From assembly GCA_005792285.1 (NCBI GenBank), contig SXSI01000017.1, forward strand, positions 1-64,000: a DNA stretch of 64,000 nucleotides, given 5' to 3'. The DNA is from Bacteroidota bacterium (GTDB lineage: Bacteria > Bacteroidota > Ignavibacteria > UBA10030 > UBA8401). Of the stretch, positions 16,001-33,353 are shown piece after piece. The notes below the pieces were generated by a model. The model was not told the origin of the DNA and ran no database searches. It saw nothing but the letters and a program-made list of their open reading frames with translations. Made by a program: the position numbers and the translations under genes. The stretch's first letter is position 1. Every line of letters begins with the position of its first letter.

Positions 16001-19000
16001 GCGACGGAGGAGTAACAAACAGTTCAATTTCAAAAACTTTTCAAGTAACAATAACTCCAGTAAACGATTCACCAAGTTTTATAAAAGGAGCAAATCAAAC
16101 AGTACTCGAAGATATCGCAAGCCAAACTATATCGAGTTGGGCAACTCTTGTAAAAAAGGGACCGACAAATGAAAACTCTCAAACTTTAACTTTCACAATT
16201 ACTTCAAATAGCAACACTGGACTTTTTGATGAACAGCCAGCAATTTCTGCAACTGGTGATTTATCATTTAAGCCAGCATTAAATAAAAATGGCTCAGCAA
16301 CAATTACAGCTTATTTAGAAGATAATGGTGGAACAACAAATGGTGGCGATAATTCTACTTCTGATACGCCAATAACTTTCTCAATTACAGTTACTGCAGT
16401 AAACGATGAACCAACTTTAACAAAACCAACTGATTTAACAATTGATGAAGATGCGGGAACTCAAACTGTTAATCTTGGAGGAATAAGTGTTGGTGGAGGA
16501 TCAGATGAAGTGGGACAAGCAATGATTGTTTCAGCTACCTCAAGCAGCACAACAATTATTCCAACTCCAACAATAACTTCATATTCAAGTCCCGGCACAA
16601 CTGGTACTATGACATTCAGACCGGCAGATGGAAAAAATACTTCCGGAATAAGTCCTGTGACAATTACAGTTCGTGTAACTGATGATGGAGGAACTTTAAA
16701 TAGTGGAGATGATCAAGTAGAAAAAACTTTTACGGTTACAATTAATCCGGTTAATGATCCCCCAACTTGGCTAACAATTAGCGATTCATCAATTGCAGAA
16801 AATGAACCTGCCGATGCTGTAATTGGAACTCTTAGTACAACAGATCCTGATGGAGATGTCTCATTCACATATTCATTAGTTGCAGGATCAGGTTCGGATG
16901 ATAATTCCTCATTCCAAATTTTGAATGATAAATTGAAAGCGAAAGAAAGTTATAATTTTGAAGCAAAGAAAGAATATACAATTCGCCTTCGTACAACTGA
17001 TTCCGGAACACCGATAAAGTTTTTTGAGAGAGCAATTATTGTTTTAATTGAAGATGTAAATGAACAACCTCAACTAGTTTATCCGGAAAGTTCTACAGTT
17101 AGAATTGCAATTTCTACAACATTAAAATGGAGAAAAGTTTCAGGAGCAATTTCTTATAGAGTTGAAGTTTATGAACAACCTCACACTGCTACTATAGTAG
17201 ACACAACTTTAACAGCATTTTATAGAGGTGATGTAACTGGTGGAGATACAATTAAAGCATTTACTAACTTCAAAAATTATAAAAAATATTTTTGGAGAGT
17301 TTATTCGATGGATAGTAAAGCGAATATAAGTTTCTGGTCTTTCGTTTGGAATTTTAGGACTGTAATTGGTGCGCCAATTCATAAAAGTCCGGCTGATAAA
17401 AAACTATGGACAAAAATTCGTGATACGTTAACTTGGCTTGATACAAATAAAGTAGCCACGAAATATGATTTGCAAATTTCACTGAGTTCAAGTTTTGCTA
17501 GTGTTGCTAAAGATGTTGCCAGTATCGATTCTTCATTGAAGAATCATTATTACGATACATTAACAACAAATTTAACTTATTACTGGAGAATGCGAGCGAG
17601 AAATATAACAGATACAAGTTCCTGGACTACTGCTTGGGAGTTTAGAGTTGTTCCCAAAAAACCGGAAGTTGATTCGGTTGTAGTTTCCAAAAACCAATTT
17701 AATTTTACTTCAGATACACTTAGAATTCTTTATTATCCAAAAGGCGATATTGGAGATACCGCAACTATGGTATTTGATTATTCGCTTAACAATGGATTAA
17801 CATGGTTTTCGACTACAAATATTTTAGTCCCTTCAGCAAAAACTGCGATAAAAAACCTCCCAATATTAATGGCTTGGTTATCTGTTAAAGATTTTTCATT
17901 TATTGAAAACGATTCTGTAAAAGTTCGTATTACTTTAGTTGGAATTGGTGGAGCTGGAACTCCGAGAGCCTCATCTGTTTTTTCATTAGACAATAATCCT
18001 CCAACATTTGGTGGTTTGACAACTGCATTTGCTGAAACTACCGGGAATGCAATTACATTAAGTTGGGCAAAGGGAAGTGATAAAAATGGGCCGGTTCGAT
18101 ATTATATTTTCTATGCAGAAAAAGATTCTAATGCAATTAATTATTCTACACCAATCGACAGTATAACTAACGAAAATACTTTAACAAAAACTTTAATCGG
18201 ATTAAAAAATTATGTTCGATATTATTTAGCAGTTCGTGCTCGGGATCGTGCCGATAATTATGATGGGAATACAGTTGTAAAGAAAGCAACTCCATCAAAA
18301 CCGGTAAGATTAATTTCAATTACTTCGCCAAGTGGAGTATTTAAAGATTCGGTTTATATTCCATTTGAAGTTGTAGCTGCAATTGATGATACAATTACTA
18401 TGATTGGTGAATTTAGTAAAAATGATGGTTCAACTTGGTTCTCAATTTTGCAATTAGGTGGAAGAGCTACAAAAGTTTCCAATGTAAATTTTAAAGATTC
18501 AGTTTTATGGCGAACAAGAAGTGATAATGAGTTTACAGAATCTATGACGACAAAATTTAGATTGACTGCTTTTGGTTTAGCAGTTAATAGTGCAACTTTA
18601 CAAACAAATAAATTTATAGTCGATAATACTCCACCATATATTGACAGCATTAAATCAGTTGTAAATAACGGACAAAATATTGCAGGCTCAGTTGCGTTAA
18701 GTTGGACAAAGCCAACTGATTTCAGTTCGCCAGTGGCTTATCAAATGTATGTTTCAGAAACAGCAACTTATAATAGAGCAACTCCAAATCGGGCTTTCCC
18801 TTCAAAAAAACCCTCCATAAATGTAGATTCAATGTGGATTCCCGGATTAAAAGCTTTGACAAAGTATTACTTCTCAATGTGGTACAAAGATTCGTTGTCA
18901 AATACAGATAGCACACTTGTTTCAAAAGCAAAATATTTTACAACAGGAATATTGACTGACTACACAAACGATGCAAGAATTTTAACAGACGATTTGGCGA

Positions 19001-19917
19001 AATTTAGTGATGCTTGGAAAAATAATAACAAACTTATTGGAGATATTTCTCCGTATCGAGGAACTTTCCCTGCGGTTTCAATTGATAATGATGGTTTAAT
19101 TGATTTAGAAGATTTAACTTTATTTGTAAGAATTTGGAATTGGGCTTTTGTAAATGGCAAAGGGGGAACTTTAAGTAATTCGCTTGCAAAAGGAAGTAAT
19201 GCAAACGAATCTGAAGGAAATATTTCAACCGGTGAAACTAAATTATTAAAAGATGGCAAAACACTTTCAATTCCACTTTTTGTTACTGGAGTAAAAAGTT
19301 TTGATGCAATGAACTTGATGTTAAATTATAATACAAATTCAGTAAAAGTTGATTCGTTTGTTTTGAATAACGGATTAAAAAAATACTTTGGTGAATCGAT
19401 TGTAGCGCTATTTAATTCAGACTCAAAATATGGACTTACAACAACTGCATTTGCAAATCTTGGATTTAAAGAATTAACTCCAGAGACAACTACTGAACTT
19501 GGTGTTTTATATGCGACAATAAAAAATAATACTTTCGAAGGAAGTTTCAGCGGAGGATTTGAAATTTACTCCGTTTCAAAAAATATAAATCAAAATGGAA
19601 CTCTCTCATTAAATTACAAAACCGAACCGGTATTACCGAAAATTTTTGCATTAGAACAAAATTATCCAAATCCATTTAATCCAAAAACAAATATTAAATT
19701 TGCATTACCAGTTACGAGTAATGTTAAAATTGAAATTTATAATATACTCGGAGAAAAAGTAATCGAGTTAGTAAATCAGCAACACAATGCAGGATTACAC
19801 ACGGTTGAATGGAACGCAAATGTTTCGAGTGGTTTATATTTCTATAGAATTAACGCTGAAAGCATTGATAAAACAAGACGTTTTGTACAAACCAAAAAAA
19901 TGCTTTTCCTAAAATAA
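13036..19917 (+). CDS. Giant T9SS-exported repeat protein (cadherin/Ig-like, FN3, dockerin, cohesin-like modules)
   Basis: This 2293-residue cell-surface or secreted protein has a signal peptide (about 1-20, ending FLFAQ). Eleven Ig/cadherin-like repeats of about 105-120 residues run from about 21 to 1240. Each typically opens LEDA or NSSAYSQAF, carries DDGGTANSG, and ends TITVTxVNDxP. A twelfth cadherin-like repeat at about 1240-1350 has SIAENEPADAVIGTL. Several FN3-like modules span about 1350-1970. A dockerin-like pair, including DNDGLIDLEDLTLF, is at about 1975-2040, and a cohesin-like module at about 2060-2190. The C-terminus is a type A T9SS sorting domain, with NYPNPFNPKTNIKF and SGLYFYRINA, at about 2205-2293. 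Probable roles are adhesion or matrix. No T9SS machinery gene is in the window. Confidence 0.93.
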   Translation: MKKLLLNIIFFISFTGFLFAQLGPTISNITTKTINEDANTGTINFTVGDVDTPVGNLTLSASSGDGTIIPNVNIVFGGSGADRTVTVTPAANQTSAGGVAVTVTVSDGALTASDVFLVIINPVNDIPTISPPANQTINEDANTGTINFTIGDVEHPSDLVVTSSSSNTTIIPSSGIVLGGTGTNRTIKVTPAADQFTTSPVTITLTVTDPNDATVNGTLTITVTSVNDVPSFIKGANVEVLQNSSAYSQAFATSLSAGPSNESSQILSFTATNNSNVLFTVQPSVSSSGVLSFTPANNQVGTATVTLSIQDDGGTGNSGNNSSANQTFTITFSAVNQAPTINAISTLNILEDAGVQTVNMAGITNSGLAGESAQTIAITSTSNSASIVGNPTVNYVSANATGTLSLTPAANANTSSGPVTITVRVQDNGGTSFNGVDTAKITFQVNVTAVNDVPSFTKGSNVTVMQNSSAYSQAFATSLSKGGGSDESSQTLSFTVINDANPLFTSQPEVNASGVLAFTPATNQTGTANITISIQDDGGTANSGSNSSATQTFTITITQVNQEPTIDNLSNLTILEDAVQQTVNLTGIKSNASNLAWESNQVLAVTATSSNTAIVPNPTVTYSSASTTGSIAFTPNADKFGTVTISVTVTDNGGTGNGGDDAITKTFTITITGVNDRPSYTAGVNQTVLEDAGGQSASWATSLNKGNSDESAQTLSFVIQNNTNTALFSAGPAIDASGNLTYTSATNKVGVATITVYMQDDGGTANSGVNNTSDDPKSFTITVTGVNDEPIINSVSDISVDEDASAQTISLSGIGAGGGTDENSQTLALSITSSNTTIIPTPTISYTSANPIGTINYTPAANQFTSGSPVVLTLTLQDNGGTANSGDDTKVITINVTVNSVNDQPTLSDIVNPATVLEDAGGNISVSLGGITSGSVNEIQTLTVTATSSDQAVIPNPTVTYSSANAIGTLTLTPQADQNGVITITVTVSDGGVTNSSISKTFQVTITPVNDSPSFIKGANQTVLEDIASQTISSWATLVKKGPTNENSQTLTFTITSNSNTGLFDEQPAISATGDLSFKPALNKNGSATITAYLEDNGGTTNGGDNSTSDTPITFSITVTAVNDEPTLTKPTDLTIDEDAGTQTVNLGGISVGGGSDEVGQAMIVSATSSSTTIIPTPTITSYSSPGTTGTMTFRPADGKNTSGISPVTITVRVTDDGGTLNSGDDQVEKTFTVTINPVNDPPTWLTISDSSIAENEPADAVIGTLSTTDPDGDVSFTYSLVAGSGSDDNSSFQILNDKLKAKESYNFEAKKEYTIRLRTTDSGTPIKFFERAIIVLIEDVNEQPQLVYPESSTVRIAISTTLKWRKVSGAISYRVEVYEQPHTATIVDTTLTAFYRGDVTGGDTIKAFTNFKNYKKYFWRVYSMDSKANISFWSFVWNFRTVIGAPIHKSPADKKLWTKIRDTLTWLDTNKVATKYDLQISLSSSFASVAKDVASIDSSLKNHYYDTLTTNLTYYWRMRARNITDTSSWTTAWEFRVVPKKPEVDSVVVSKNQFNFTSDTLRILYYPKGDIGDTATMVFDYSLNNGLTWFSTTNILVPSAKTAIKNLPILMAWLSVKDFSFIENDSVKVRITLVGIGGAGTPRASSVFSLDNNPPTFGGLTTAFAETTGNAITLSWAKGSDKNGPVRYYIFYAEKDSNAINYSTPIDSITNENTLTKTLIGLKNYVRYYLAVRARDRADNYDGNTVVKKATPSKPVRLISITSPSGVFKDSVYIPFEVVAAIDDTITMIGEFSKNDGSTWFSILQLGGRATKVSNVNFKDSVLWRTRSDNEFTESMTTKFRLTAFGLAVNSATLQTNKFIVDNTPPYIDSIKSVVNNGQNIAGSVALSWTKPTDFSSPVAYQMYVSETATYNRATPNRAFPSKKPSINVDSMWIPGLKALTKYYFSMWYKDSLSNTDSTLVSKAKYFTTGILTDYTNDARILTDDLAKFSDAWKNNNKLIGDISPYRGTFPAVSIDNDGLIDLEDLTLFVRIWNWAFVNGKGGTLSNSLAKGSNANESEGNISTGETKLLKDGKTLSIPLFVTGVKSFDAMNLMLNYNTNSVKVDSFVLNNGLKKYFGESIVALFNSDSKYGLTTTAFANLGFKELTPETTTELGVLYATIKNNTFEGSFSGGFEIYSVSKNINQNGTLSLNYKTEPVLPKIFALEQNYPNPFNPKTNIKFALPVTSNVKIEIYNILGEKVIELVNQQHNAGLHTVEWNANVSSGLYFYRINAESIDKTRRFVQTKKMLFLK
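13120..16770 (+). repeat. Tandem domain-repeat region of the giant gene
   Basis: Eleven coding repeats of roughly 310-360 bases share nucleotide-level similarity, for example recurring gatgatggtggaac and acaattacagtta strings. Two subtypes alternate. One has PSF-KG-N-TV openings (starting near 13722, 14393, 15064 and 16065). The other has PTI---S-L-ILEDA openings (near 14050, 14731, 15400, 15745 and 16405). The pattern suggests past duplication of a two-domain unit. Confidence 0.8.
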
Positions 19918-20051
19918 GCTTTACAATTCTTTAGCTTCAGATTTAATATCAATTTTACAATCAAAATCCTTTCTTCAGAATTTATTCAATATTTGTTTAT
20001 TAACTAAATTAAAATGAATTTTGGAAATAATAATAAAGTTGAAAAATAAAA

Positions 20052-20729
20052 ATGAGTAAAACAGTCCTAATAGTTGAAGATGAAAAAGATATTGTTGAGT
20101 TATTAAAATACAATTTACAGAAAGAAGGCTTTAATGTTTTGGTTGCACATAATGGTAAGGATGCGCTCGACAAAGCAAAAAAAATTCCAAATTTAATTCT
20201 TCTTGATGTAATGATTCCAGAGCCAGATGGATTGGAAGTAACAAGAAGATTAAAAAAAGATAAAGAAACTTCTCATATTCCAATAATATTATTAACTGCA
20301 AAATCAACTGAACTGGATGAAGTTGTAGGATTAGAACTTGGAGCTGATGATTATATTACAAAGCCAGTAAGTATCCCACGACTTCTTGCCAGAATAAAAA
20401 AAGTTATTCGAAATAAAGAAAATCCAACCGAGAAAAATTCCACAATTATTTTAGATGGCGTTGTAATCGATTCAACTAATTATAAAGTATTGATTGATAA
20501 AAAAGAAATATTTTTTCCAAGAAAAGAATTCCAATTACTACTTTATCTTGCAGAAAATAAAGGAAGAGTAATCAAGCGAGATTCAATTTTAAGTGCAATA
20601 TGGGGAGATGGAGTTGTAGTTCTAGATAGAACGATTGATGTTCACATTCGTAAAATCAGGGAAAAACTTGGTAAATACGCTGACTTGATTCAAACAATAA
20701 AAGGTGTTGGTTACCGAATTGAATATTGA
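20052..20729 (+). CDS. phoB: Phosphate-type response regulator (PhoB/OmpR family)
   Basis: This transcription factor of 225 residues is phosphorylated by the adjacent kinase. The receiver domain spans about 3-118 and contains the acidic pocket VEDEKD, phospho-acceptor Asp52 in ILLDVMIP, and the Lys of DDYITKP. An OmpR/PhoB winged helix spans about 130-225, with FPRKEFQLLLYLAENKGRV and RTIDVHIRKIREKLG. The PhoB assignment rests on the downstream pstSCAB-phoU genes and on an 11-bp direct-repeat array before pstS. Its stop overlaps the TTG start of phoR. A tiny upstream ORF (ATG at 20014, 11 codons) is present, without evidence of use. Confidence 0.92.
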   Translation: MSKTVLIVEDEKDIVELLKYNLQKEGFNVLVAHNGKDALDKAKKIPNLILLDVMIPEPDGLEVTRRLKKDKETSHIPIILLTAKSTELDEVVGLELGADDYITKPVSIPRLLARIKKVIRNKENPTEKNSTIILDGVVIDSTNYKVLIDKKEIFFPRKEFQLLLYLAENKGRVIKRDSILSAIWGDGVVVLDRTIDVHIRKIREKLGKYADLIQTIKGVGYRIEY

Positions 20730-22177
20730 TTTCTAGCATAAAAAATAAATTAATTCTAACACTTCTGCTACTTTGTACCAGCATTATTGTTATAACGGGA
20801 ACAATTTCAATAATTGTACTTGATAATTTTTATGAAAATCAAATTATTGATGATCTTAAAATTAAGACAAATGAAATAAAATATTTTATTGGAATTCCGA
20901 AAGGGAATAATGAAGATGCATACGAGCAACTTCAAAAATTAACAAAAGAGGGCAAATACAGATTAACACTTATTGATAGTGTTGGCAATGTGATTTTTGA
21001 TTCCGATATACAAGAAAATGAACTAGGGAAACTAGATAATCATTTATTGCGGAGTGAAATAGTTCAAGCTTTAGAATCTGGAGTAGGTGTTAGTAAAAGA
21101 TTTAGTAATACAATAAAAAACGAAATGCAATATCTTGCATTACGAATTGAACCTCGATTACCACTAAACTCAATATTTTCGAAAGCATATTTTATTAGAA
21201 TAAGTATCCCTCTGAATAAAATTAAGTTTGCAACAAATGAAGTTAAGTCGACAATAATAATTTTATGTAGTTTGGCGTTTTTAATTATTGCAGTTGTAAC
21301 TTTTATTATTTCCGGAAAAATTACGCATCCACTTAAATCGATGGCAGATATTGCAATTGAAATAAAAAAAGGAAGCTTAGATAAAAGAATTTCCTATAAT
21401 TCAAAAGATGAACTTGGGGAACTTGCTACTAGTATAAACTCAATGGTTGATACGATGAATGAAGACATCGTTCAATTAAAAAAATTAGAAAAAATGCGAC
21501 GCGAATTTTTAGGAAATGTGTCACACGAATTAAGAACCCCAATATTTGCAATTCAGGGATTGCTCGAAACTTTGCTAAATGGTGCATTAGAAGATTCAGA
21601 TGTAAGAAAAGATTTTGTTGCTCGCGCTTTGTTAAACACAAAACGACTTGATACTTTATTAGATGAATTAATTACAATCTCAAGTATTGAAACAGGTGAG
21701 ATGAAAATGAGTTTCAGATATTTTAATTTACAAGAGTTTCTATCGCAATCCATATTTGAAATGGAACCACTTGCTGAATCTTTTAATGTTAAATTGAAAT
21801 TAGAAAAAATTGATAATAATATTGAAGTGTACGGTGACAAAGAAAAACTAAAACAAGTTGTAATTAATCTAATTCAAAACGGAATTAAATATAATATTCC
21901 AAAAGGAACAGTTGTTATATCAACAATGAAAGAAGCAGATCAAATTAAAATTATTATAAAAGATTCTGGAGTTGGAATATCTGAAGAACATATTTCAAGA
22001 ATATTTGAAAGATTTTACAGAATCGATAAAGAGCGATCGAGAGATATGGGAGGAACAGGTTTGGGTCTTGCAATTGCGAAACATATTGTTGAAGCTCATG
22101 GTAATAAATTGGAAGTTTTAAGTGAATTGCAAAAGGGTTCCAAGTTCAGTTTTACATTACAACGTAGTAAAATATAG
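20726..22177 (+). CDS. phoR: Phosphate-type sensor histidine kinase (PhoR-like)
   Basis: This inner-membrane kinase has 483 residues and probably starts at TTG, overlapping the phoB stop (TTGA). TM1 is about 8-30 and an extracytoplasmic region spans about 31-170. TM2 is about 172-196 (STIIILCSLAFLIIAVVTFII), followed by HAMP at about 198-250. The H-box FLGNVSHELRTP has the phospho-accepting His at about 267. The ATPase domain shows the N-box VVINLIQNGIKYN, DSGVGI (G1) and GGTGLGLAI (G2). With phoB next door and pst genes downstream, it is best read as the phosphate sensor. No cytoplasmic PAS domain is obvious, unlike E. coli PhoR. Confidence 0.9.
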   Translation: MISSIKNKLILTLLLLCTSIIVITGTISIIVLDNFYENQIIDDLKIKTNEIKYFIGIPKGNNEDAYEQLQKLTKEGKYRLTLIDSVGNVIFDSDIQENELGKLDNHLLRSEIVQALESGVGVSKRFSNTIKNEMQYLALRIEPRLPLNSIFSKAYFIRISIPLNKIKFATNEVKSTIIILCSLAFLIIAVVTFIISGKITHPLKSMADIAIEIKKGSLDKRISYNSKDELGELATSINSMVDTMNEDIVQLKKLEKMRREFLGNVSHELRTPIFAIQGLLETLLNGALEDSDVRKDFVARALLNTKRLDTLLDELITISSIETGEMKMSFRYFNLQEFLSQSIFEMEPLAESFNVKLKLEKIDNNIEVYGDKEKLKQVVINLIQNGIKYNIPKGTVVISTMKEADQIKIIIKDSGVGISEEHISRIFERFYRIDKERSRDMGGTGLGLAIAKHIVEAHGNKLEVLSELQKGSKFSFTLQRSKI

Positions 22178-22208
22178 CTTATTTGTAGGATTCGAAAAGG
22201 GGAACGAG

Positions 22209-22247
22209 TTAACAATTTCTTAACATTGGCATAATAATTTTTTAATA
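22209..22247 (+). promoter_or_regulatory. Pho-box-like array upstream of pstS
   Basis: Four hexamers recur at exactly 11-base spacing: TTAACA (22209), TTAACA (22220), ATAATA (22231) and TTAATA (22242). The first two are identical. An 11-bp direct-repeat period is the known layout of PhoB and PhoP operators, and TTAACA resembles the Bacillus PhoP half-site. The array ends 9 bases before the -7 element and probably replaces a -35. Confidence 0.75.
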
Positions 22248-22256
22248 GTGTAATTC

Positions 22257-22264
22257 TATTTTTG
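22257..22264 (+). promoter_or_regulatory. pstS promoter -7 element
   Basis: TATTTTTG matches TAnnTTTG exactly and lies just downstream of the Pho-box array. It would give a leader of about 60 nt before pstS. Confidence 0.6.
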
Positions 22265-22330
22265 TCTGAAATTAGTAACTAGTAATTGTGAATTTATTAA
22301 AAAATAACCAATAATTTAACAAAACAAAAA

Positions 22331-23155
22331 ATGAAAAAAATAATAACTCTAATACTAACTTTAGCCATTATAAATATTTCTACAAATTCTGCAGAAATTA
22401 TTACAGTTAAAGGTTCCGATACAATGGTAATATTATCACAAAGATGGGCTGAAAATTATATGGCAAAATTTCCAGACGTTACAATTCAAGTAACCGGGGG
22501 TGGATCAGGTACTGGAATTTCTGCTCTCATAAATGGCACAACTGATATTTGTAATGCATCACGTCCGATGAAAAAAACAGAAAGAGAAAAATTAAAAGAA
22601 AAATATAATTCATTCGGTATTGAAATTAAAACCGCTATCGATGCTTTATCAGTTTATGTAAATGAGACAAATAAAATTAAAGAACTTAGTTTAGCTCAGT
22701 TAAAAGATATTTATCAAGGTAAAATAACAAACTGGAAAGAAGTTGGCGGAGCAGATGAAAAAATAATTCTTTATAGTCGTGAAAATAGTTCCGGTACATA
22801 CGAATACTTTAAAGAACATGTACTTCTCAACGAAGATTTTTCACAATCTTCACAAAATATGCCGGGCACCGCAGCAGTTGTAAATGCAGTTTCAAATGAT
22901 AAATCAGGAATTGGATTTGGTGGAGCAGCTTTCAGTAAAGGAATTAAATCTTTAAAAATTAAAAAAGATGACTCTTTAAAAGCTTACGAGCCAACAGAAA
23001 AAAATGTTAAAAGTGGTAATTATCCAATCTCACGATATCTCTTTATGTATGTTAAATCAAAACCAACAGGAGCATTAAAAAAATATATTGACTGGATTTT
23101 AAGTAAAGAAGGCCAATCAATTGTAAATAAAGTTGGCTACTTTCCGATAAAGTAA
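22331..23155 (+). CDS. pstS: Phosphate ABC transporter substrate-binding protein
   Basis: This periplasmic phosphate receptor has 274 residues. A signal peptide spans about 1-20 (MKKIITLILTLAIINISTNSA). Phosphate-binding hallmarks are VKGSDTMVILSQRWAE, TGGGSGTGISALINGTTDI, SRENSSGTYEYFKEHVL and the terminal WILSKEGQSIVNKVGYFPI. It belongs to the short PstS type typical of gram-positives and Bacteroidota/Chlorobi, rather than the ~320-residue enteric type. It heads pstSCAB-phoU and is preceded by the Pho-box array, so induction on phosphate starvation is expected. Confidence 0.96.
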   Translation: MKKIITLILTLAIINISTNSAEIITVKGSDTMVILSQRWAENYMAKFPDVTIQVTGGGSGTGISALINGTTDICNASRPMKKTEREKLKEKYNSFGIEIKTAIDALSVYVNETNKIKELSLAQLKDIYQGKITNWKEVGGADEKIILYSRENSSGTYEYFKEHVLLNEDFSQSSQNMPGTAAVVNAVSNDKSGIGFGGAAFSKGIKSLKIKKDDSLKAYEPTEKNVKSGNYPISRYLFMYVKSKPTGALKKYIDWILSKEGQSIVNKVGYFPIK

Positions 23156-23192
23156 AAACCCAGAATAACTATAGTTTAAATAAAATACTTCG

Positions 23193-24233
23193 CTGAAAAA
23201 AAATCAAATAAGAAAAAAATTTCGATTATCAGGATTAAAAGAAATTATTGCTGAGTTTTTAATAAAATCAATTTCTTTTACTGCGTTTATATTTATTATT
23301 CTGATATTCTTATTTGTATTTAGAGAGACACTACCAATATTTTTTCAACAAGAAAAAAAAGTAACAATTGAAAATGTTGAAGAATATGAGACATACGGAG
23401 ATGAATCAATCTCATTAAATTTATTACCAACAGAACTTACCGTTACAAAAAATGAACAAATATCCGATGAAGGAACACTTTCAAAAATAATCGGGGAAAT
23501 CTGGCAACCAATATCAAACAATCCTAAATTTGGATTAATTTCGCTTTTTATTGGAAGCTTAAAAGTTACAATTATTGCAATATTATTTGCCGCACCAATA
23601 GCAATTGCGGCTGCGTTATACACATCATTTTTTGCTTCAAAAAAAATTAGAGTAATATTAAAACCAACAATAGAATTTCTTGCAAGCTTCCCATCAGTTG
23701 TAATTGGATTTTTAGCTCTTACAGTATTTGCAACTTTTTTTCAACAGTTATTTGGAACTGTATTTCGGCTAAATGCTTTCGTTGGCGGAATTGCTTTAGC
23801 GTTAGCTGTAATTCCAATAATTTATACTGTTGCAGATGATGCGCTTGTGGCAATCCCAACACATTTTACGGAAGCGAGTTACGCACTTGGCGCATCCAAA
23901 TGGCAAACTGCTATTTATGTAATTTTACCGGGAGCGATTCACGGAATTTTTGCTGCAGTACTTTTGGGTATTGGTCGTGCATTTGGCGAAACGATGATTG
24001 TATTAATGGCAACTGGAAATGCTGCACTTATTTCTTTTAATTTTGCAGAACCTGTTCGCTCATTAACAGCAACAATTGGGGCAGAGATGGCAGAAGTTGT
24101 TTTTGGAGATACACATTACAATGTTTTATTTTTTATTGGTACACTTCTTTTAGTATTCACTTTCATCTTAAATATTATTGCGGAAGTTGTTGTTAAAAAA
24201 GGAATTATTAAAAAATTTAGTGGCTCCGAATGA
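23193..24233 (+). CDS. pstC: Phosphate ABC transporter permease PstC, non-canonical start
   Basis: This inner-membrane permease pairs with PstA. The ORF track begins only at an internal GTG (23847), but the same frame is open and clearly coding back to a stop at 23181-23183. That adds TM1 (SISFTAFIFIILIFLFVF), a periplasmic loop, and a permease core with LFAAPIAIAAALYTSFFASKK and FLASFPSVVIGF. No ATG, GTG or TTG exists in this frame upstream of 23847. The best start is CTG at 23193 (LKKNQIRKKFRLSG), giving about 346 residues, within the family range. A rare CTG, an ATT or ATA start, or a sequencing indel in the adjacent A-run are the alternatives. The EAA-like loop YALGASKWQTAIYVILP is intact. 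It overlaps pstA by ATGA. Confidence 0.85.
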   Translation: MKKNQIRKKFRLSGLKEIIAEFLIKSISFTAFIFIILIFLFVFRETLPIFFQQEKKVTIENVEEYETYGDESISLNLLPTELTVTKNEQISDEGTLSKIIGEIWQPISNNPKFGLISLFIGSLKVTIIAILFAAPIAIAAALYTSFFASKKIRVILKPTIEFLASFPSVVIGFLALTVFATFFQQLFGTVFRLNAFVGGIALALAVIPIIYTVADDALVAIPTHFTEASYALGASKWQTAIYVILPGAIHGIFAAVLLGIGRAFGETMIVLMATGNAALISFNFAEPVRSLTATIGAEMAEVVFGDTHYNVLFFIGTLLLVFTFILNIIAEVVVKKGIIKKFSGSE

Positions 24234-25126
24234 AAAATAGAATAATTGGAAGTTTTGTAATATTTCTATCTGCATTTTCTGCTTTTATTATTGTTGCAAT
24301 AATTTTATTAATGTTCTATATAATTTATTCGGGCGGAAGTAATTTATTATCATTAAGTTTTCTATTAGATTCTCCAAAAGATGGAATGACTTCCGGTGGA
24401 ATATTTCCTGCAATTGTTGGAACTTCATTATTAGTTATTATTATGACAATTGCAGGTGTTCCCGTTGGAACAATTACCGCAATTTATCTTCATGAATATG
24501 CAAGTCAAAAATCTATTTTTACAAGAATGATTAGATTTGCAGTAAACACACTCGCCGGAATTCCTGCAATTGTATTTGGATTATTTGGTTTCGGATTCTT
24601 CATCCAATTTGTTGGAGTTGGAATAGATAAAAATTTAGGAGTTGAAACAGTTCGTTGGGCGCAGCCAAATATTTTATGGGCAAGTTTAACAATGGCATTA
24701 CTTACACTTCCGGTTGTAATTGTTTCAGTTGAAGAAGCATTAAGAAATGTACCGAAAGAATATAGAGCAGCAAGTTTAGCACTTGGCGCAACAAAATTTA
24801 CTACAATAATAAAAGTTGTTGTGCCAAATGCAATTTCAGGAATATTTACAGGATCAATTCTGGCAGTGGGAAGAGGAGCCGGAGAAGTTGCACCTATTTT
24901 ATTTACAGGAGCTGCATATTTTTTACCTCAAATTCCACAATCACTTTCAGATCAGTTTATGCATGTGGGTTATCATTTGTATATTATGACAACGCAATCC
25001 GCAGATGTAGAAGCTACTAAACAGATACAATTCGCGAGTGCGTTTGTACTTCTTTTATTAACATTTATTCTAAATTTTTCTGCTATACTTTTAAGACAGC
25101 GAATGCAGAAAAAATTAGTTTCATAG
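24230..25126 (+). CDS. pstA: Phosphate ABC transporter permease PstA
   Basis: This is the second transmembrane subunit of the Pst phosphate importer, 298 residues with about six hydrophobic segments. Hallmarks are [41 protein letters not shown] and the ABC-permease loop [22 protein letters not shown], followed by [20 protein letters not shown]. The length is typical. The start overlaps the pstC stop by four bases, and pstB follows after 13 bases. Confidence 0.96.
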
Positions 25127-25139
25127 TTTAAAAAATTTT

Positions 25140-25922
25140 ATGGATCCTTTGGAATTAGAAATTGAAATAATCTCAAAAATAAAAGTTGAGAATTTAAATC
25201 TTTATTATGGGAGTAAACAAGTTCTTAAAAATATTTCATTAAATATTAAAGCAAACCAAGTAACTGCATTAATTGGTCCTTCCGGTTGTGGAAAATCCAC
25301 ATTCATAAGATCGCTTAACAGGATGAATGATCTTATAGATTCAACTCGAACTGAAGGAACAATTTTACTTGACGATGTAAATATTTACGACAAAGATATT
25401 GATGTTGTTGAATTAAGAAAAAAAGTTGGAATGATATTTCAGAAGTCAAATCCATTTCCAAAATCGATTTATGAAAATGTTGCATTTGGTCCGAGAATAA
25501 ATGGAATAAATAATAAAAAAACACTTGATGAAATAGTAGAAAAAAGTTTAAAAAGAGCAGCACTTTGGGATGAAGTAAATTCTAATTTAAATAAAAGTGG
25601 ACTTGCACTTTCAGGCGGACAGCAACAGCGACTTTGTATTGCAAGAGCATTAGCGGTAAATCCGGAAGTATTATTAATGGACGAACCGGCAAGTGCATTA
25701 GATCCAATTGCAACTGCAAAAATTGAAGAACTTATTTTTGAATTGAAACAAAAATATACAATTGTAATTGTTACACACAATATGCAACAAGCAGCTCGTG
25801 TTAGCGATGAAACCGCTTTCTTTTATCTTGGAGATTTGGTTGAAATAAACGAAACAAAAAAATTATTTACTTCACCAGATAAAAAACAAACCGAAGATTA
25901 TATAACTGGAAGATTCGGATAA
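25140..25922 (+). CDS. pstB: Phosphate ABC transporter ATP-binding protein
   Basis: This cytoplasmic ATPase drives PstCA. Its 260 residues include Walker [10 protein letters not shown] (about 49-57), Q-loop [22 protein letters not shown], signature [17 protein letters not shown], Walker [14 protein letters not shown] and switch [18 protein letters not shown]. The Q-loop context ([15 protein letters not shown]) is specific for PstB. The first residues ([13 protein letters not shown]) are slightly longer than some relatives, so an internal start is possible, but none is clearly better. Confidence 0.97.
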
Positions 25923-25953
25923 AAATTATTGTAAATTAATATATAGGAAAAAC

Positions 25954-26676
25954 ATGGAACGACATTTTAAAAATGAATACGAACATTTATTTGCTAGCTT
26001 AATAAAAATGGGTAGTTATGTTGAAGAGGCAGTAGAACATTCAATAAAAGCACTTCTTACAAACCAAATTAATTTAGCGAAACAAGTTATAGATGGTGAT
26101 AATAGAATTAATGTATTAGAAATTGTAAATGATAATTTGATAATCGATCTTTTAGCACTTCATCAACCTGTTGCAACGGATTTGCGGATGCTTCTTGCCG
26201 ACACAAGAATAAATAATCACTTTGAAAGAATTGGCGACCACGCTGTAAATCTCGCAGAGTCAGTGATTATATTATTAAATTCAAAGAATTCTAAAGATAA
26301 TCTTCTTGAAATTCCGAAGATGGCAGAGTTAACAAAGAAAATGTTACAGGGTGCAATTAATTGTTTTATTCACAGAGATGTTCAACTTGCTGAATCTGTT
26401 TTAAAGCAAGATGACGAAGTTGACGATTTGAATAAATCGATGATGACTTTAGTTGCTCAAGAAATATATATTGAAATGGAAGAGAAAGTTGCAAATCCAA
26501 AATCTCACGATACCGATAAAAACCTTGAAAGAATTAAATCAGGAATGGAGCTTTTAAGGATTAGCAGAAATTTTGAGCGAATTTCAGATCTCGCTACAAA
26601 TATTGCTGAAGAAGTTATTTTTATTATTCAAGCCAGAACCGTAAAACATAATATTACCGTGAGCGAACAAAAATAA
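25954..26676 (+). CDS. phoU: Phosphate signalling protein PhoU
   Basis: This cytoplasmic helical-bundle protein links Pst transport to PhoR and restrains the Pho response when phosphate is plentiful. Its 240 residues carry two PhoU repeats. The first has IDGDNRINVLE, LHQPVATDLRMLLADTRINNHFERIGDHAVNLAE; the second has KQDDEVDDLNKSM and RISRNFERISDLATNIAEEVIF. Both metal-binding E/D clusters are present. It is the last gene of the cluster, 31 bases after pstB. No terminator is obvious before the decayed region. Confidence 0.95.
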   Translation: MERHFKNEYEHLFASLIKMGSYVEEAVEHSIKALLTNQINLAKQVIDGDNRINVLEIVNDNLIIDLLALHQPVATDLRMLLADTRINNHFERIGDHAVNLAESVIILLNSKNSKDNLLEIPKMAELTKKMLQGAINCFIHRDVQLAESVLKQDDEVDDLNKSMMTLVAQEIYIEMEEKVANPKSHDTDKNLERIKSGMELLRISRNFERISDLATNIAEEVIFIIQARTVKHNITVSEQK

Positions 26677-26690
26677 AAAAGTAATTTACT

Positions 26691-26975
26691 TTATTTAAAG
26701 TTCGTCAGTAAATCTACATTTTTATTTCTTAAATCTTTACCACCTTCAATTACTGATTTAAGATTAGCTAAATAAAAAGCCCAACCGACCGAACATTGAA
26801 CGTATAAATTTTTTACAGGATTCCTTTCAATTGGAATTTTATCCTTTGTAAGTTCAAGAAGTGTAATTCCTTTTTTACTTTTTATTTTTACAGTTACAAT
26901 ACAACATTTTGTAAATGTAAATTGAATTAAGTTCTTCCCGTTAGCTTTTAAAATTTCCCAAATCCATTTAATCCT
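26691..26975 (-). pseudogene. C-terminal remnant of an AHSA1/SRPBCC-family gene
   Basis: Minus-strand translation ending at a stop at 26693-26691 reads GKNLIQFTFTKCCIVTVKI, then ...GITLLELTKDKIP..., then GWAFYLANLKSVIEGGKDLR. This strongly resembles the C-terminal half of AHSA1/SRPBCC (START-like) proteins, which are normally about 140-160 residues. Only about 95 codons remain. The frame is closed by a stop at 26978-26976 and has no start codon. The break coincides with the start of the T9SS remnant on the other strand. It was probably created by a deletion; expression is unlikely. Confidence 0.8.
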
Positions 26976-27193
26976 TCAACAACAATAAGTTATACAATTC
27001 CCTTCTCAGGAATAACTGTAGTAAAAGTATTTGATATTCTTGGAAAAGAAGTAGCTACACTTATTAATGAAAATCAAAGTGCTAGAAATTATAAAATTAA
27101 TTTTGATGCAAAAATCTTTCATCCGGTATTTATTTTTACAGTTTAAAATCTGGAAGTTTTATACAAGTAAAGAAATTGACTTTAATGAAGTAA
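26952..27193 (+). pseudogene. Orphan, frameshifted T9SS type A sorting domain remnant
   Basis: Plus-strand translation from 26952 reads NFPNPFNPSTTISYTIP, then VVKVFDILGKEVATLIN, the hallmark of a T9SS C-terminal domain. The frame ends early at 27144-27146. The other frame from about 27113 continues it exactly, with NLSSGIYFYSLKSGSFIQVKK and LTLMK, and stops at 27191-27193. One A missing from an A-run near 27110-27114 explains the shift, and a sequencing error there is also possible. An in-frame stop lies immediately upstream (26949-26951) and there is no start, so this is a tail that has lost its passenger domain. A strong terminator follows. Confidence 0.85.
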
Positions 27194-27225
27194 GTTATAT
27201 TTAGAGGGGAAGTATTTTTGATATC

Positions 27226-27262
27226 AAAAGGTGCATAACGGGAAGTGCACCTTTTATTTTTT
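27226..27262 (+). terminator. Intrinsic terminator after the T9SS remnant
   Basis: The perfect 10-bp stem AAAAGGTGCA/TGCACCTTTT closes a 10-base loop and is followed by ATTTTTT. It survives although its gene is broken, and it insulates the helicase promoter. Confidence 0.92.
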
Positions 27263-27280
27263 ATAATAGCCAAAATTTAG

Positions 27281-27288
27281 TATATTTG
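27281..27288 (+). promoter_or_regulatory. Putative helicase promoter -7 element
   Basis: TATATTTG matches TAnnTTTG exactly, about 107 bases before the helicase ATG and 18 bases after the terminator. TTTT rather than TTTG sits 20 bases upstream. Long leaders are common for cold-regulated helicases. Confidence 0.5.
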
Positions 27289-27395
27289 AGGCACAATCTA
27301 ATTCGAAACAGACATAAACAGTCATCTCCTCAAGAAATTTCTCGCCAGAGTTAATCGAACTAGCACAATTAAGTAGTAATAATAGATAATATAAT

Positions 27396-29108
27396 ATGCA
27401 ACAAACAATTACATCCGACAACTTTTATGGTCTTGGTATAGCTCCTGGACTATTAGAAGTACTAGAAAAATTAAAATTTACAACACCAACACCAATTCAA
27501 CGCCAAGCAATTCCAATCGGAGTAGAAGGAAAAGATGTAGTTGGTATTGCTCAAACAGGAACAGGAAAAACATTGGCATTTGGAATTCCAATGGTTCAAC
27601 GTTTAGCACAATCAAAAAATAGAGGATTAATTTTAGTTCCTACTCGTGAACTTGCACTTCAAGTTGATAAAGTTCTTCACACAATTGGAAAAACTCTTGG
27701 ACTTCGCACAGCAGTATTAATTGGCGGCGCTGCATTTCGACCGCAAATGCAAGATCTAAAAAATAATCCAAATGTAATTATTGCAACCCCCGGACGATTA
27801 AATGATCATCTACAACAAAAAACAGTTTCACTTAATGCTGTGAATATGTTAGTAATTGATGAAGCAGATCGAATGTTAGAAATGGGATTTCAAGAACAAA
27901 TTCAAAAAATTCTAAAATTAGTACCACACGATAAACAAACAATGCTTTTTTCTGCAACACTTTCGCCAGACGTAATGAAAATAGCTTCTTCAACAATGAA
28001 GTTGCCGGTACAAATTGAAGTTGTACCACAAGGAACAACCTCAGATAGAGTCGTGCAAGAAATATTCATCGTAAAAAATAGTTCAAAAAGTAGATTGCTC
28101 GAAAAGATTTTAACTGAACATCATACATCAACTTTAGTTTTTACACGCACAAAACGTGGTGCATCAAAAGTTATGAAGTCGGTTCGAAGTATGGGACATA
28201 GCGCTGCAGAAATTCACTCAAACCGAACACTCGGTCAGCGAAGAGAAGCGCTTGAAGGTTTCAAAACTGGGAAATATAAAATTCTAGTTGCAACTGATAT
28301 TGCCGCACGAGGAATTGATGTTACAGGAATTGAACTCGTATTAAATTATGATTTACCTTCAACCGCAGAAGATTATGTTCACCGTATTGGAAGAACTGGT
28401 CGCGCAGGTGCTGGCGGTCGTGCAATTTCATTTGGAATGCCGGATCAACAACACGATATACGCGACATCGAAAGATTTATTCGCAAAACTTTACCACGAA
28501 TTCCATTGCCTGAACTTCCACCTGAACGTCCTCGTGTAGATGATGACCAGGAGAACGAAGAAAGAAGAGATGGTCGAAGAGGTAAAAGCCGTGGAGGTAG
28601 TAACCGAAGAAATGATCGTGGAGAAAGAAAATTTGTATATAGAAACAAAAGCCGAACTAGCTTTAACTCAAATGATGATCGTGGAGAAAGAAGATTTGTA
28701 CATAGAAACAAAAGCCGAACTAGCTTTAACTCAAATGATGATCGTAGAAATAGAGAAAAAGTTAGCAGTAAAGGAAGTCCTTTTCGAAGTGACGATCGAG
28801 GAAATAGAGAGCAAGTTAATACGGATAGAAATGACAGTCGCGGAAATCGAGAACAGAAAAGTGGTGAGCGAAAATACGAAAGCAGAAATCGTAGATTTGC
28901 TGGTGGTGGAAGAAAATTTAGTAGTGACACCAGAGGTGCAGTTCGTGGTGAGCGAAAACCATTTTCCGATAGTACTCAACGACCACAACCACAAGGAGAT
29001 GATAGACGACATCGTAAACCACAATCGGGAAGTTCGTCTGGACCAAGCCGAAATAAATTTACTACACGAATTCGAAGTAGTGCGCCTCGCAGAGATTCAA
29101 CGCGATAA
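27396..29108 (+). CDS. DEAD-box RNA helicase (RhlE-like) with basic repetitive tail
   Basis: This ATP-dependent RNA helicase has 570 residues. The core (about 1-375) shows the Q motif TPTPIQRQAIP, motif I AQTGTGKT, Ia PTRELALQV, Ib TPGRL, II DEAD, III SAT, V ATDIAARGIDV and VI HRIGRTGRAG. Order and spacing fit the RhlE group. From about 380 the tail is rich in Arg, Gly, Asn and Ser, and probably binds RNA nonspecifically. It includes two nearly identical 21-residue copies (DRGERKFVYRNKSRTSFNSN). Likely roles are ribosome assembly, mRNA turnover or cold adaptation. The antisense and frame-shifted ORFs over the tail are composition shadows. Confidence 0.95.
   Translation: MQQTITSDNFYGLGIAPGLLEVLEKLKFTTPTPIQRQAIPIGVEGKDVVGIAQTGTGKTLAFGIPMVQRLAQSKNRGLILVPTRELALQVDKVLHTIGKTLGLRTAVLIGGAAFRPQMQDLKNNPNVIIATPGRLNDHLQQKTVSLNAVNMLVIDEADRMLEMGFQEQIQKILKLVPHDKQTMLFSATLSPDVMKIASSTMKLPVQIEVVPQGTTSDRVVQEIFIVKNSSKSRLLEKILTEHHTSTLVFTRTKRGASKVMKSVRSMGHSAAEIHSNRTLGQRREALEGFKTGKYKILVATDIAARGIDVTGIELVLNYDLPSTAEDYVHRIGRTGRAGAGGRAISFGMPDQQHDIRDIERFIRKTLPRIPLPELPPERPRVDDDQENEERRDGRRGKSRGGSNRRNDRGERKFVYRNKSRTSFNSNDDRGERRFVHRNKSRTSFNSNDDRRNREKVSSKGSPFRSDDRGNREQVNTDRNDSRGNREQKSGERKYESRNRRFAGGGRKFSSDTRGAVRGERKPFSDSTQRPQPQGDDRRHRKPQSGSSSGPSRNKFTTRIRSSAPRRDSTR
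28614..28739 (+). repeat. Two tandem 63-bp repeats in the helicase tail
   Basis: Copies at 28614-28676 and 28677-28739 differ at only a few bases and encode DRGERKFVYRNKSRTSFNSND and DRGERRFVHRNKSRTSFNSND. A third, diverged unit begins gatcgtagaaat at 28740. The unit keeps the frame (21 codons), which fits recent slippage or unequal crossover. Confidence 0.92.
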
Positions 29109-29151
29109 TAAAATTTAAAAATTATATTTACTATTTACAAAAATTAAAATT

Positions 29152-30437: not shown

Positions 30438-31709
30438 TTAAATATTTATAGTTAGTAAATCATTCCACTGTGTAGTGTAACATTGCGTAAGTCGTTCTTG
30501 TCGAAGCCGCCACACTCTGTCAACTCCTTGTGCAGCATAACGAACAACATCGCGTCCCATTATTTTATTTAGTCTGTCAAGTGTCTGTGCGGCAATGTTG
30601 AATTTGTCTCGGGAAATTTTTCCGACTTCATCAAATAAATTATTTTGTATGAAGTTTTCAGAAGTCAAACCACTTACAATTATTCCCGCTTTTTTATAAT
30701 TATATCCTTCGCGAAAAATTGATTCGAGTCCGAAAAGAGCATGCCGCAAAAGTTCAATTGTATTATTAGTTGCTGTTGTAATGTGAATTGTGCGGGATTT
30801 ATTATACTGCGGCAACTCGGGTTTAAAAGGATTTGTTTCAATAAAAACAGTTATCAAATTAGCCACAGTTTTTTGCCGGCGAAGTTTTTCTGCACAACGA
30901 GATGTGTAAGTTGAAACTGCTTCACGAATAAGTGAAATATCAGTTGTCGTTTTTCCAAACGAGCATGAAGTACAAATTTCTTTTTTTGATGAACGAATTG
31001 GTTCAAGCATCATGCAAGAAGTTCCGCGTAATTCTTCAGCGATACGCAAACCGACAACAGTATAAATTTTACGAATCCATTCATCTTGCATATTCCGGAG
31101 TTCGAGCGCTGTAGTAATTCCGTATGAACGAAGCGAACGGGAATATTGCCGACCAATTCCCCAAATATCTTCAACGGGAAATGTTGAAAGAACCTCTTCA
31201 ATTTTTTTTTCTTCCGAAATAATAAAAAGACCTTCCGATTTAGAATTCTTTTTCGACAATTTATTTGCAACTTTTGCTAAAGTTTTCGTCGGTGCAATTC
31301 CAATTGAAACAGGAATACCTGTCCACCGTTTTATTTTTGTCTGAAGTCCCCGGGCAAATATTACCAAACGATCAAGTGGAATATTTGCCACATCAAGAAA
31401 TGCTTCGTCAATAGAATATATTTCAATATTAGGAGCATGCTCTGTAAGAATACTCATTACACGATCGGATATATCTCCGTACAAAGCATAATTGGAAGAG
31501 AAGACAGCAACATTATTATCGCGGAGAACATTTTCAATTTTAAACGCAGGAACTCCCATTTTAATTCCGAGCACTTTGGCTTCGTTGGATCTTGCAACAA
31601 TGCATCCGTCGTTATTTGAAAGCACAACCGCTGGACGATTTTTTAATGTGGGACTAAATATGCGCTCGCACGAAATATAAAAATTATTACAGTCAACTAA
31701 TGCAAACAT
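30438..31709 (-). CDS. umuC: Y-family DNA polymerase V catalytic subunit UmuC
   Basis: This translesion polymerase has about 423 residues. I start it at the ATG at 31709 (MFALVDCNNFYISCERIF), two bases after umuD. The ORF track's earlier start (31748) adds 13 residues not seen in the family and lies inside umuD. Catalytic features are the DCNNFYISCE motif, AVVLSNNDGCIVARSNEAK, and YSIDEAFLDV with the paired acidic residues. A helix-hairpin-helix region (FPVEDIWGIG) and the little-finger domain follow. The length matches UmuC rather than DinB. Confidence 0.96.
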   Translation of the reverse strand: MFALVDCNNFYISCERIFSPTLKNRPAVVLSNNDGCIVARSNEAKVLGIKMGVPAFKIENVLRDNNVAVFSSNYALYGDISDRVMSILTEHAPNIEIYSIDEAFLDVANIPLDRLVIFARGLQTKIKRWTGIPVSIGIAPTKTLAKVANKLSKKNSKSEGLFIISEEKKIEEVLSTFPVEDIWGIGRQYSRSLRSYGITTALELRNMQDEWIRKIYTVVGLRIAEELRGTSCMMLEPIRSSKKEICTSCSFGKTTTDISLIREAVSTYTSRCAEKLRRQKTVANLITVFIETNPFKPELPQYNKSRTIHITTATNNTIELLRHALFGLESIFREGYNYKKAGIIVSGLTSENFIQNNLFDEVGKISRDKFNIAAQTLDRLNKIMGRDVVRYAAQGVDRVWRLRQERLTQCYTTQWNDLLTINI

Positions 31710-31711
31710 AA

Positions 31712-32161
31712 TTATGGTTTGTGAATAATATAACTTACAACGCCCCAAATTTCAAATTCATTTTCTTTTAAAATTTTAATTGGAGTGAAATCCGGATTTT
31801 CCGGAACGAGATAAATTTCTGATTTAACTTTTTTAATTCTTTTAACAGTAAATTCACCATTCAACATACAGACCGCAATGTCTTTGTTTTTTGCTTCCAA
31901 CGATCTGTCAACAATTAAAATATCACCATCATTTATTCCGGCATTTATCATTGAACTTCCTTTTACACGAACATAAAAAGTAGCAGCAGGATGTGAAATA
32001 AGAAATTTATTAAGGTCGAGTTTTAATTCTACATAATCTTCCGCAGGAGAAGGAAAACCAGCTGCAACTTTAGATGTGAATAGTGGAAGTTTTAATGGCG
32101 TATTTGTATCTGCAGTGTAAAACTCAAGTTTTGTAGAATTATATAATCGTTTAAATTTCAT
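31712..32161 (-). CDS. umuD: UmuD-like S24 peptidase / polymerase V subunit
   Basis: Self-cleavage of this 149-residue protein activates polymerase V. The cleavage site is visible as Ala34-Gly35 in KVAAGFPSPAEDYVE. Catalytic Ser70 is in KGSSMINAGINDGD and catalytic Lys107 in GEFTVKRIKK. There is no N-terminal DNA-binding domain, which distinguishes it from LexA. It overlaps the MFS gene upstream by 11 bases and precedes umuC by 2 bases. I could not identify an SOS box with confidence; the operon promoter may be upstream of the MFS gene or inside it. Confidence 0.95.
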   Translation of the reverse strand: MKFKRLYNSTKLEFYTADTNTPLKLPLFTSKVAAGFPSPAEDYVELKLDLNKFLISHPAATFYVRVKGSSMINAGINDGDILIVDRSLEAKNKDIAVCMLNGEFTVKRIKKVKSEIYLVPENPDFTPIKILKENEFEIWGVVSYIIHKP

Positions 32162-33353
32162 TTGTTGGTAAAGTTAAATCTTCTTCGAATTTTGTTTTCC
32201 TAAATTTTAATTTTGTTGAAATAAATAATGCAGCCAAACAAAAAAGTGCTGCAAGTAAATATGGATAATATGGCTCGCTTTCAAATAATTTTCCAGCAAT
32301 AATTGGCGCAATCGCCATTGATGCAGACATAATTGAACCAAGTACTCCAATAACTTCTCCTTTAGTTTGCGGTGTTGCACTTGCTGCAGCTTGACTTGTA
32401 ATTACAACTCTGATAACAGACTGTCCAATTCCGAGAAATAATATTCCAATGTAAAAAAATAAATTTATTTTCGTTGCCATTAAAAAAAATCCGATTGATA
32501 AAATTGCCATCATTAAATATTCTAGTTTTGATTCAGAAAAATATTTAAGCCAAACCCTCTTTAATAATACTGCTTGATTTACCAAAACTATTGCACCGAG
32601 AAATGAAAATAGAAACCCAGTTACCGTTGAATTGAAATGAAAAACTTTTTGTGCAAATAATGAGAAGACTACCTGCGATAAAACAAATGCGAATGTGAAC
32701 AAAAACCAAGTTGTATATAAAGGTCTTAATTTTTTATCTACAAATGCTTTTTTTAAAGGCATAATTGGATTTATAGAAAATCGTTTTACAGATTTGTTGT
32801 GATGTGATTCCGGTAAAAAAAGAAATGCAATAAGAGCATTCAATAAAGCTAAAATTCCTGTAAACCAAAATGGAAAAGAGATTGAAATGTTACTTAAAAT
32901 TCCGCCGATCATTGGTCCAATCATAAATCCTAATCCAAAAGTTGCACCTGCTAAACCTAAATTTTGAGTTCGTTCTTTATCGTTTCTGGAAATGTCTACC
33001 ATATAACTTTGCAAGGTTGTAAATTTTCCAGCTGCGAGACCATCAACAATTCTTCCCAAAAATAATAACCACAAAGAATTTGCGCTTGCGAAAATAAATA
33101 AACCGATTGCACTTACAATCATTCCCCAAATAATTACTGGCCTTCTACCAACACGATCCGAAAGTACTCCAAGTGAAGGACTGCTGAGAAATGAAAAAAG
33201 TGAAAATGCTGAAAAAAGTAAAGTAATTGTAAATGGTGTCGCTTGAAATTCTTCCAGATAAAATGGAAGAAGTGGAATTACAATTCCAAAGCAAACTACA
33301 TCAACAAATATTGTAAAAAGTATTATTAATTTTTGGCGAGGAAGGTTGTTCAT
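32151..33353 (-). CDS. MFS transporter (DHA1/TetA-like)
   Basis: This inner-membrane proton-coupled efflux or uptake carrier has 400 residues and about 12 hydrophobic segments. It begins LIILFTIFVDVVCFGIVIPLLPFYLEEF, typical of the tetracycline-efflux-like DHA1 group. Motif A is present between TM2 and TM3 as GVLSDRVGRRPVI, and motif C-like GLGFMIGPMIGGIL follows. The substrate is unknown and the name does not imply tetracycline resistance. Its 3' end overlaps umuD, which makes it the first gene of a mutagenesis operon, an uncommon place for a transporter. Confidence 0.9.
   Translation of the reverse strand: MNNLPRQKLIILFTIFVDVVCFGIVIPLLPFYLEEFQATPFTITLLFSAFSLFSFLSSPSLGVLSDRVGRRPVIIWGMIVSAIGLFIFASANSLWLLFLGRIVDGLAAGKFTTLQSYMVDISRNDKERTQNLGLAGATFGLGFMIGPMIGGILSNISISFPFWFTGILALLNALIAFLFLPESHHNKSVKRFSINPIMPLKKAFVDKKLRPLYTTWFLFTFAFVLSQVVFSLFAQKVFHFNSTVTGFLFSFLGAIVLVNQAVLLKRVWLKYFSESKLEYLMMAILSIGFFLMATKINLFFYIGILFLGIGQSVIRVVITSQAAASATPQTKGEVIGVLGSIMSASMAIAPIIAGKLFESEPYYPYLLAALFCLAALFISTKLKFRKTKFEEDLTLPTNEI

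Follow-up and report, generated by a model that had tools for sequence, protein, structure and literature searches.

Between phoU and a DEAD-box RNA helicase gene of this Ignavibacteria genome, the ends of two broken genes stand head to head, and with a probability of roughly two in three we interpret their joint as a gene-loss scar from one deletion, which would have joined the remnant of an AHSA1/SRPBCC gene to that of a gene for a T9SS-exported protein. The window, by which we mean the whole stretch of 64,000 nucleotides analysed here, lies on a 67 kb contig (C7) of a draft genome (G000) of 1.68 Mb, 50 contigs and 95.6% completeness. The relatives at class level comprise an Ignavibacteriales MAG, by which the organism is assigned to Ignavibacteria. 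It is 94% coding apart from its largest gap, the 719 bases without an intact gene that hold the two gene ends. To the left, phoU (25954-26676, plus strand; NCBIfam TIGR02135, 153 bits) is intact, closes the pstSCAB-phoU series and converges on the AHSA1 remnant across a spacing of 14 bases, while to the right the helicase gene (27396-29108, plus strand) is likewise intact and matches NCBIfam models of the CshA/RhlE type.

Remnant of an AHSA1/SRPBCC Gene

What remains on the minus strand (26691-26957) encodes, in about 88 codons, the C-terminal half of an AHSA1/SRPBCC-domain protein, up to 64% identical to intact homologues over query residues 7-94. The open frame of this remnant runs from 26975 to 26691, with the stop codon at 26691-26693, and the surviving part contains no stops and no frameshifts. 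Intact relatives have about 165 codons, of which some 77 N-terminal ones are missing here. Alignments with intact homologues, of at most 64% identity, begin at query residue 7 or 8 (26957 or 26954), a start found in nearly all close matches, and end at residue 94; frame residues 1-6 (26958-26975) lie outside the homology. Comparison of the edge residues, (E)-x-G-[EKQT]-[IV]-L-E-A-N-G in the homologues and I-W-E-I-L-K-A-N-G in the window, places the end of the AHSA1 sequence between residue I8 and the site of the conserved glycine. One alignment carried the homology past the joint by pairing KWIW, which is PNPFN read in antisense, with the conserved W-x-W of AHSA1; it was rejected because the intact homologues are all about 11 residues longer at this point and because these bases also match the sorting domain.

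The remnant retains the whole conserved C-terminal half of the AHSA1/SRPBCC subgroup that carries the motif GWxFYLxNLKSxxEGGxDLRNK. Unlike proteins of the PF08327 family, it lacks the N-terminal residues and a start codon and does not reach the Pfam cut-off by itself (15.4 bits against 22.1), matching only profile positions 77-125 of about 125; its identification therefore rests on close homologues, and without a complete domain above the curated cut-off it is a remnant and not a member of that family. The AHSA1 frame holds no ORF of at least 40 aa beginning with ATG, GTG or TTG, and neither of the two broken frames has a usable start near its 5' edge.

The highest identity within the class is 52%, and the 64% matches are found in Mucilaginibacter and in a Flavobacteriales MAG. 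In a tree built on 87 columns, the remnant branched with these Mucilaginibacter and Flavobacteriales copies (support 95/88) and not with those of Ignavibacteria, a placement that suggests import of the gene from Bacteroidota; its position as sister of the Flavobacteriales MAG alone (94/58) was not well supported. Considering that 19 of the 20 columns with at least 90% conservation are kept and that no stops have accumulated, the gene was probably broken fairly recently.

Remnant of a T9SS-Exported Protein Gene

On the plus strand, an orphan T9SS type A C-terminal sorting domain (26950-27193) matches TIGR04183 and PF18962 and shares with the other tails of this genome the motif order NFPNPFNPST...DILGKEVATL...SSGIYFY...LTLMK. 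The homology extends from 26950 or 26952 to the stop codon at 27191-27193, and the domain is not contained in one frame. The first frame reaches 26.8 bits with TIGR04183 (cut-off 23), while Por_Secre_tail (PF18962) is matched in each of the two frames, with E values of 5e-5 and 0.006, and in a read-through with 3e-12. The frame loss reported in the initial annotation could be located in the A-run at 27110-27114; such runs are usual slippage sites, and this frame change may be a sequencing error.

In contrast to T9SS type A exported proteins, the tail has no cargo and no signal peptide; an in-frame TAA (26949-26951) stands directly before it, and AHSA1 antisense sequence lies directly upstream. 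The intact terminator that had been ascribed to this gene was recovered as a plus-strand hairpin followed by a T-run at 27226-27255 (one intrinsic-terminator-like structure found, 0.3 expected by chance), which presumably once terminated transcription of the T9SS gene. The Pfam count of T9SS tails in the genome is 38, and the tail in the window is at most about 55% identical to any of the others.

The Joint and the Proposed Deletion

Both genes have lost the side that faces the joint, and no sequence separates them. This agrees with the initial annotation, which had described two broken frames without their N-terminal parts at the positions found here; the homologues of both are full-length. 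It had also let them meet within 26950-26978, and the direct meeting holds in a tighter zone, as the two homologies abut or overlap within 26950-26959, where 3-10 bases can be assigned to either gene. The stretch AAAATTTCCC at this place can be read as ..(G)-E-I-L of AHSA1 on the minus strand and as (Q)-N-F-P of the T9SS domain on the plus strand, which makes it a candidate microhomology, deduced from the homologues, that would fit illegitimate recombination at short homology; it is short and AT-rich and could have arisen by chance.

According to the proposed mechanism, an AHSA1/SRPBCC gene behind phoU (minus strand) and a gene for a T9SS-exported protein ahead of the helicase gene (plus strand) would have stood back to back, and a deletion would have taken the 5' parts of both together with everything between them. 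The AHSA1 gene would thereby have been cut near codon 78 and fused to the opening codons of the sorting domain, the fusion probably falling in a common stretch of 3-10 bases. Neither remnant can yield a working protein by translation, and the T9SS tail has in addition lost its frame in the A-run. The joint would then be one among several scars of this sort, in a genus whose genomes are strongly reduced.

Both truncations, the direct joint, the loss of frame, the further scars and the small genome are seen directly. We infer a single event, deletion as its mechanism and a role of the short shared sequence from several observations. The 5' sides were lost in both genes, which is the right orientation for one deletion, with nothing left between them, and the homology of both remnants stops at the same place. 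Moreover, this is the sole trace of AHSA1 found in the genome: no second gene was found in G000 and none in its congener G001, even though at least one AHSA1 gene occurs in 49 of 60 relatives. Genomes of 1.7 Mb in the genus, against 2.9-4.5 Mb for the other 20 sampled members of the family, and the further scars described below point in the same direction. One deletion for both losses, as first suggested in the initial annotation, is the simplest and most economical reading; the directly joined 5' truncations and the short shared stretch speak for it, but no relative offers the ancestral interval.

Gene Order in Related Genomes

The phoU-helicase interval is conserved in no relative examined: other genes follow PhoU in 10 of 10 relatives, and PhoU is absent from the congener. 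The comparison of this interval across related genomes, which the initial annotation had envisaged, thus returned neither an ancestral interval nor the same arrangement. Near the 80 GTDB and 13 class-level AHSA1 loci, no AHSA1 gene diverging from a T9SS gene was found (T9SS genes being recognized by motif only), and together with the 10 phoU neighbourhoods these loci gave no undeleted AHSA1-T9SS arrangement, an absence that does not refute the deletion.

In G001, YceI follows 77 bases after a giant T9SS gene that is 72-75% identical to window positions 13036-19917, and the pst-phoU-helicase block is absent from this place. In G000, a block of 9.2 kb (19918-29151) lies between the giant gene and YceI and contains a response regulator and a kinase, pstSCAB, phoU, the AHSA1 remnant, the T9SS tail and the helicase gene, the last of which is bordered by gene-order breaks relative to G001. 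This different layout indicates that gene order here changed more than once. The giant exported proteins themselves differ in the length of a repeat or linker region, with 2293 aa in the window (13036-19917) and 2606 aa in the G001 orthologue.

Alternative Explanations

The joint could also be a rearrangement breakpoint, at which the helicase gene and the end of a T9SS gene were moved beside phoU and AHSA1 while the missing halves stayed behind at other places and disappeared. We regard this as unlikely, although the gene order of the congener speaks for it: there the helicase gene lies at another place (contig C48), between an intact T9SS gene, which it follows directly, and SurA-TilS-Hpt-FtsH. 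In G000, SurA-TilS-Hpt-FtsH is found on another contig (C6), preceded by an orphan T9SS tail, where G001 has the T9SS gene and the helicase. In addition, the best match of the window tail among the 40 tails of G001 is that of the T9SS gene preceding the helicase, and the reciprocal search gave a tie for first of 36. However, that match is weak (52%, with a narrow score margin) and clear orthologous tails of the two genomes are far more alike; the two helicases are 57% identical, no closer to each other than to that of a genome from another family; and the G001 stretch before the helicase has a G+C content of 0.37-0.45 against 0.24-0.35. A chimeric join of two unrelated pieces during assembly, conceivable in a 50-contig draft in which T9SS tails are repeated and some contigs end in them, appears quite improbable: the 21-mer spanning the joint has no second occurrence in the genome at up to 3 mismatches, an ambiguous stretch of at most 10 bases is too short for an overlap join, the flanks of the junction have normal composition, no second AHSA1 match was found, and a search of the assembly for the missing N-terminal half of AHSA1, run without a positive control, gave nothing.

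Two further readings concern what the remnants do and where the break fell. The 5' edge of the sorting domain, present in some 38 related copies in the genome, might be a preferred site of illegitimate recombination by which domains are shuffled between genes and orphan tails are left behind, and if this were true, the joint, within a few bases of the domain start, would represent one failed product of such shuffling; we give this idea very little credence. Continued function of the remnants, perhaps in the form of an RNA or short peptide, is scarcely credible. The AHSA1 half does keep an open frame with conserved residues, but there is no start codon for a usable ORF, the T9SS tail is out of frame, no Rfam match was obtained, a simple sigma-70 scan (with a pattern ill suited to this group) detected no promoter-like site, and the arrangement occurs in no relative examined.

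In the gap before the G001 helicase gene, the 5' end of the neighbouring LamG/T9SS gene (L043:10087-12600) recurs in incomplete form at L043:12857-13040 (contig C48). Near this place the G+C content falls from about 0.40 to 0.25-0.32, so the preceding stretch may be of foreign origin or a misjoin.

Other Scars in a Reduced Genus

One deletion would place the joint among the pseudogene remnants and deletion scars of reduced bacterial genomes, with which it shares truncated ends, short shared bases at the joint, occurrence at several sites and a small genome; two genes broken at one joint make it a neat case of the same process. What is seen here is ordinary gene decay in a reduced genome and not a new kind of element, and no general view is changed by the AHSA1-T9SS scar. 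It provides a clean marker of gene loss for an Ignavibacteria genus of reduced genomes, in which an AHSA1 gene, probably imported, and a gene for an exported protein would have been lost at one joint, and it warns annotators that orphan T9SS tails are not necessarily part of functional genes.

A parallel deletion scar is present in the congener, where the SRAP gene has suffered at least two deletions and persists as a remnant (L251:6861-7300, contig C46) in which residues 72-168 are joined out of frame to residues 206-218. The matching neighbourhood in G000 keeps SRAP-UmuC-UmuD-MFS, and the UmuC, UmuD and MFS genes of the window (30438-33353) were not found at the SRAP place on C46. Within G000, the orphan tail ahead of SurA-TilS-Hpt-FtsH is a minus-strand ORF of 74 aa (L258:4608-4832, contig C6) that resembles a T9SS tail without the NYPNP start; its homology begins within the domain, near a tRNA-like stretch. 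A further T9SS gene has decayed on the plus strand of contig C21 (about 18970-19640 of the contig, of which L046:4996-5640 covers about 18995-19640). Its LamG-like 5' part, interrupted by an internal stop and by changes of frame, is joined to a sorting domain that is truncated.
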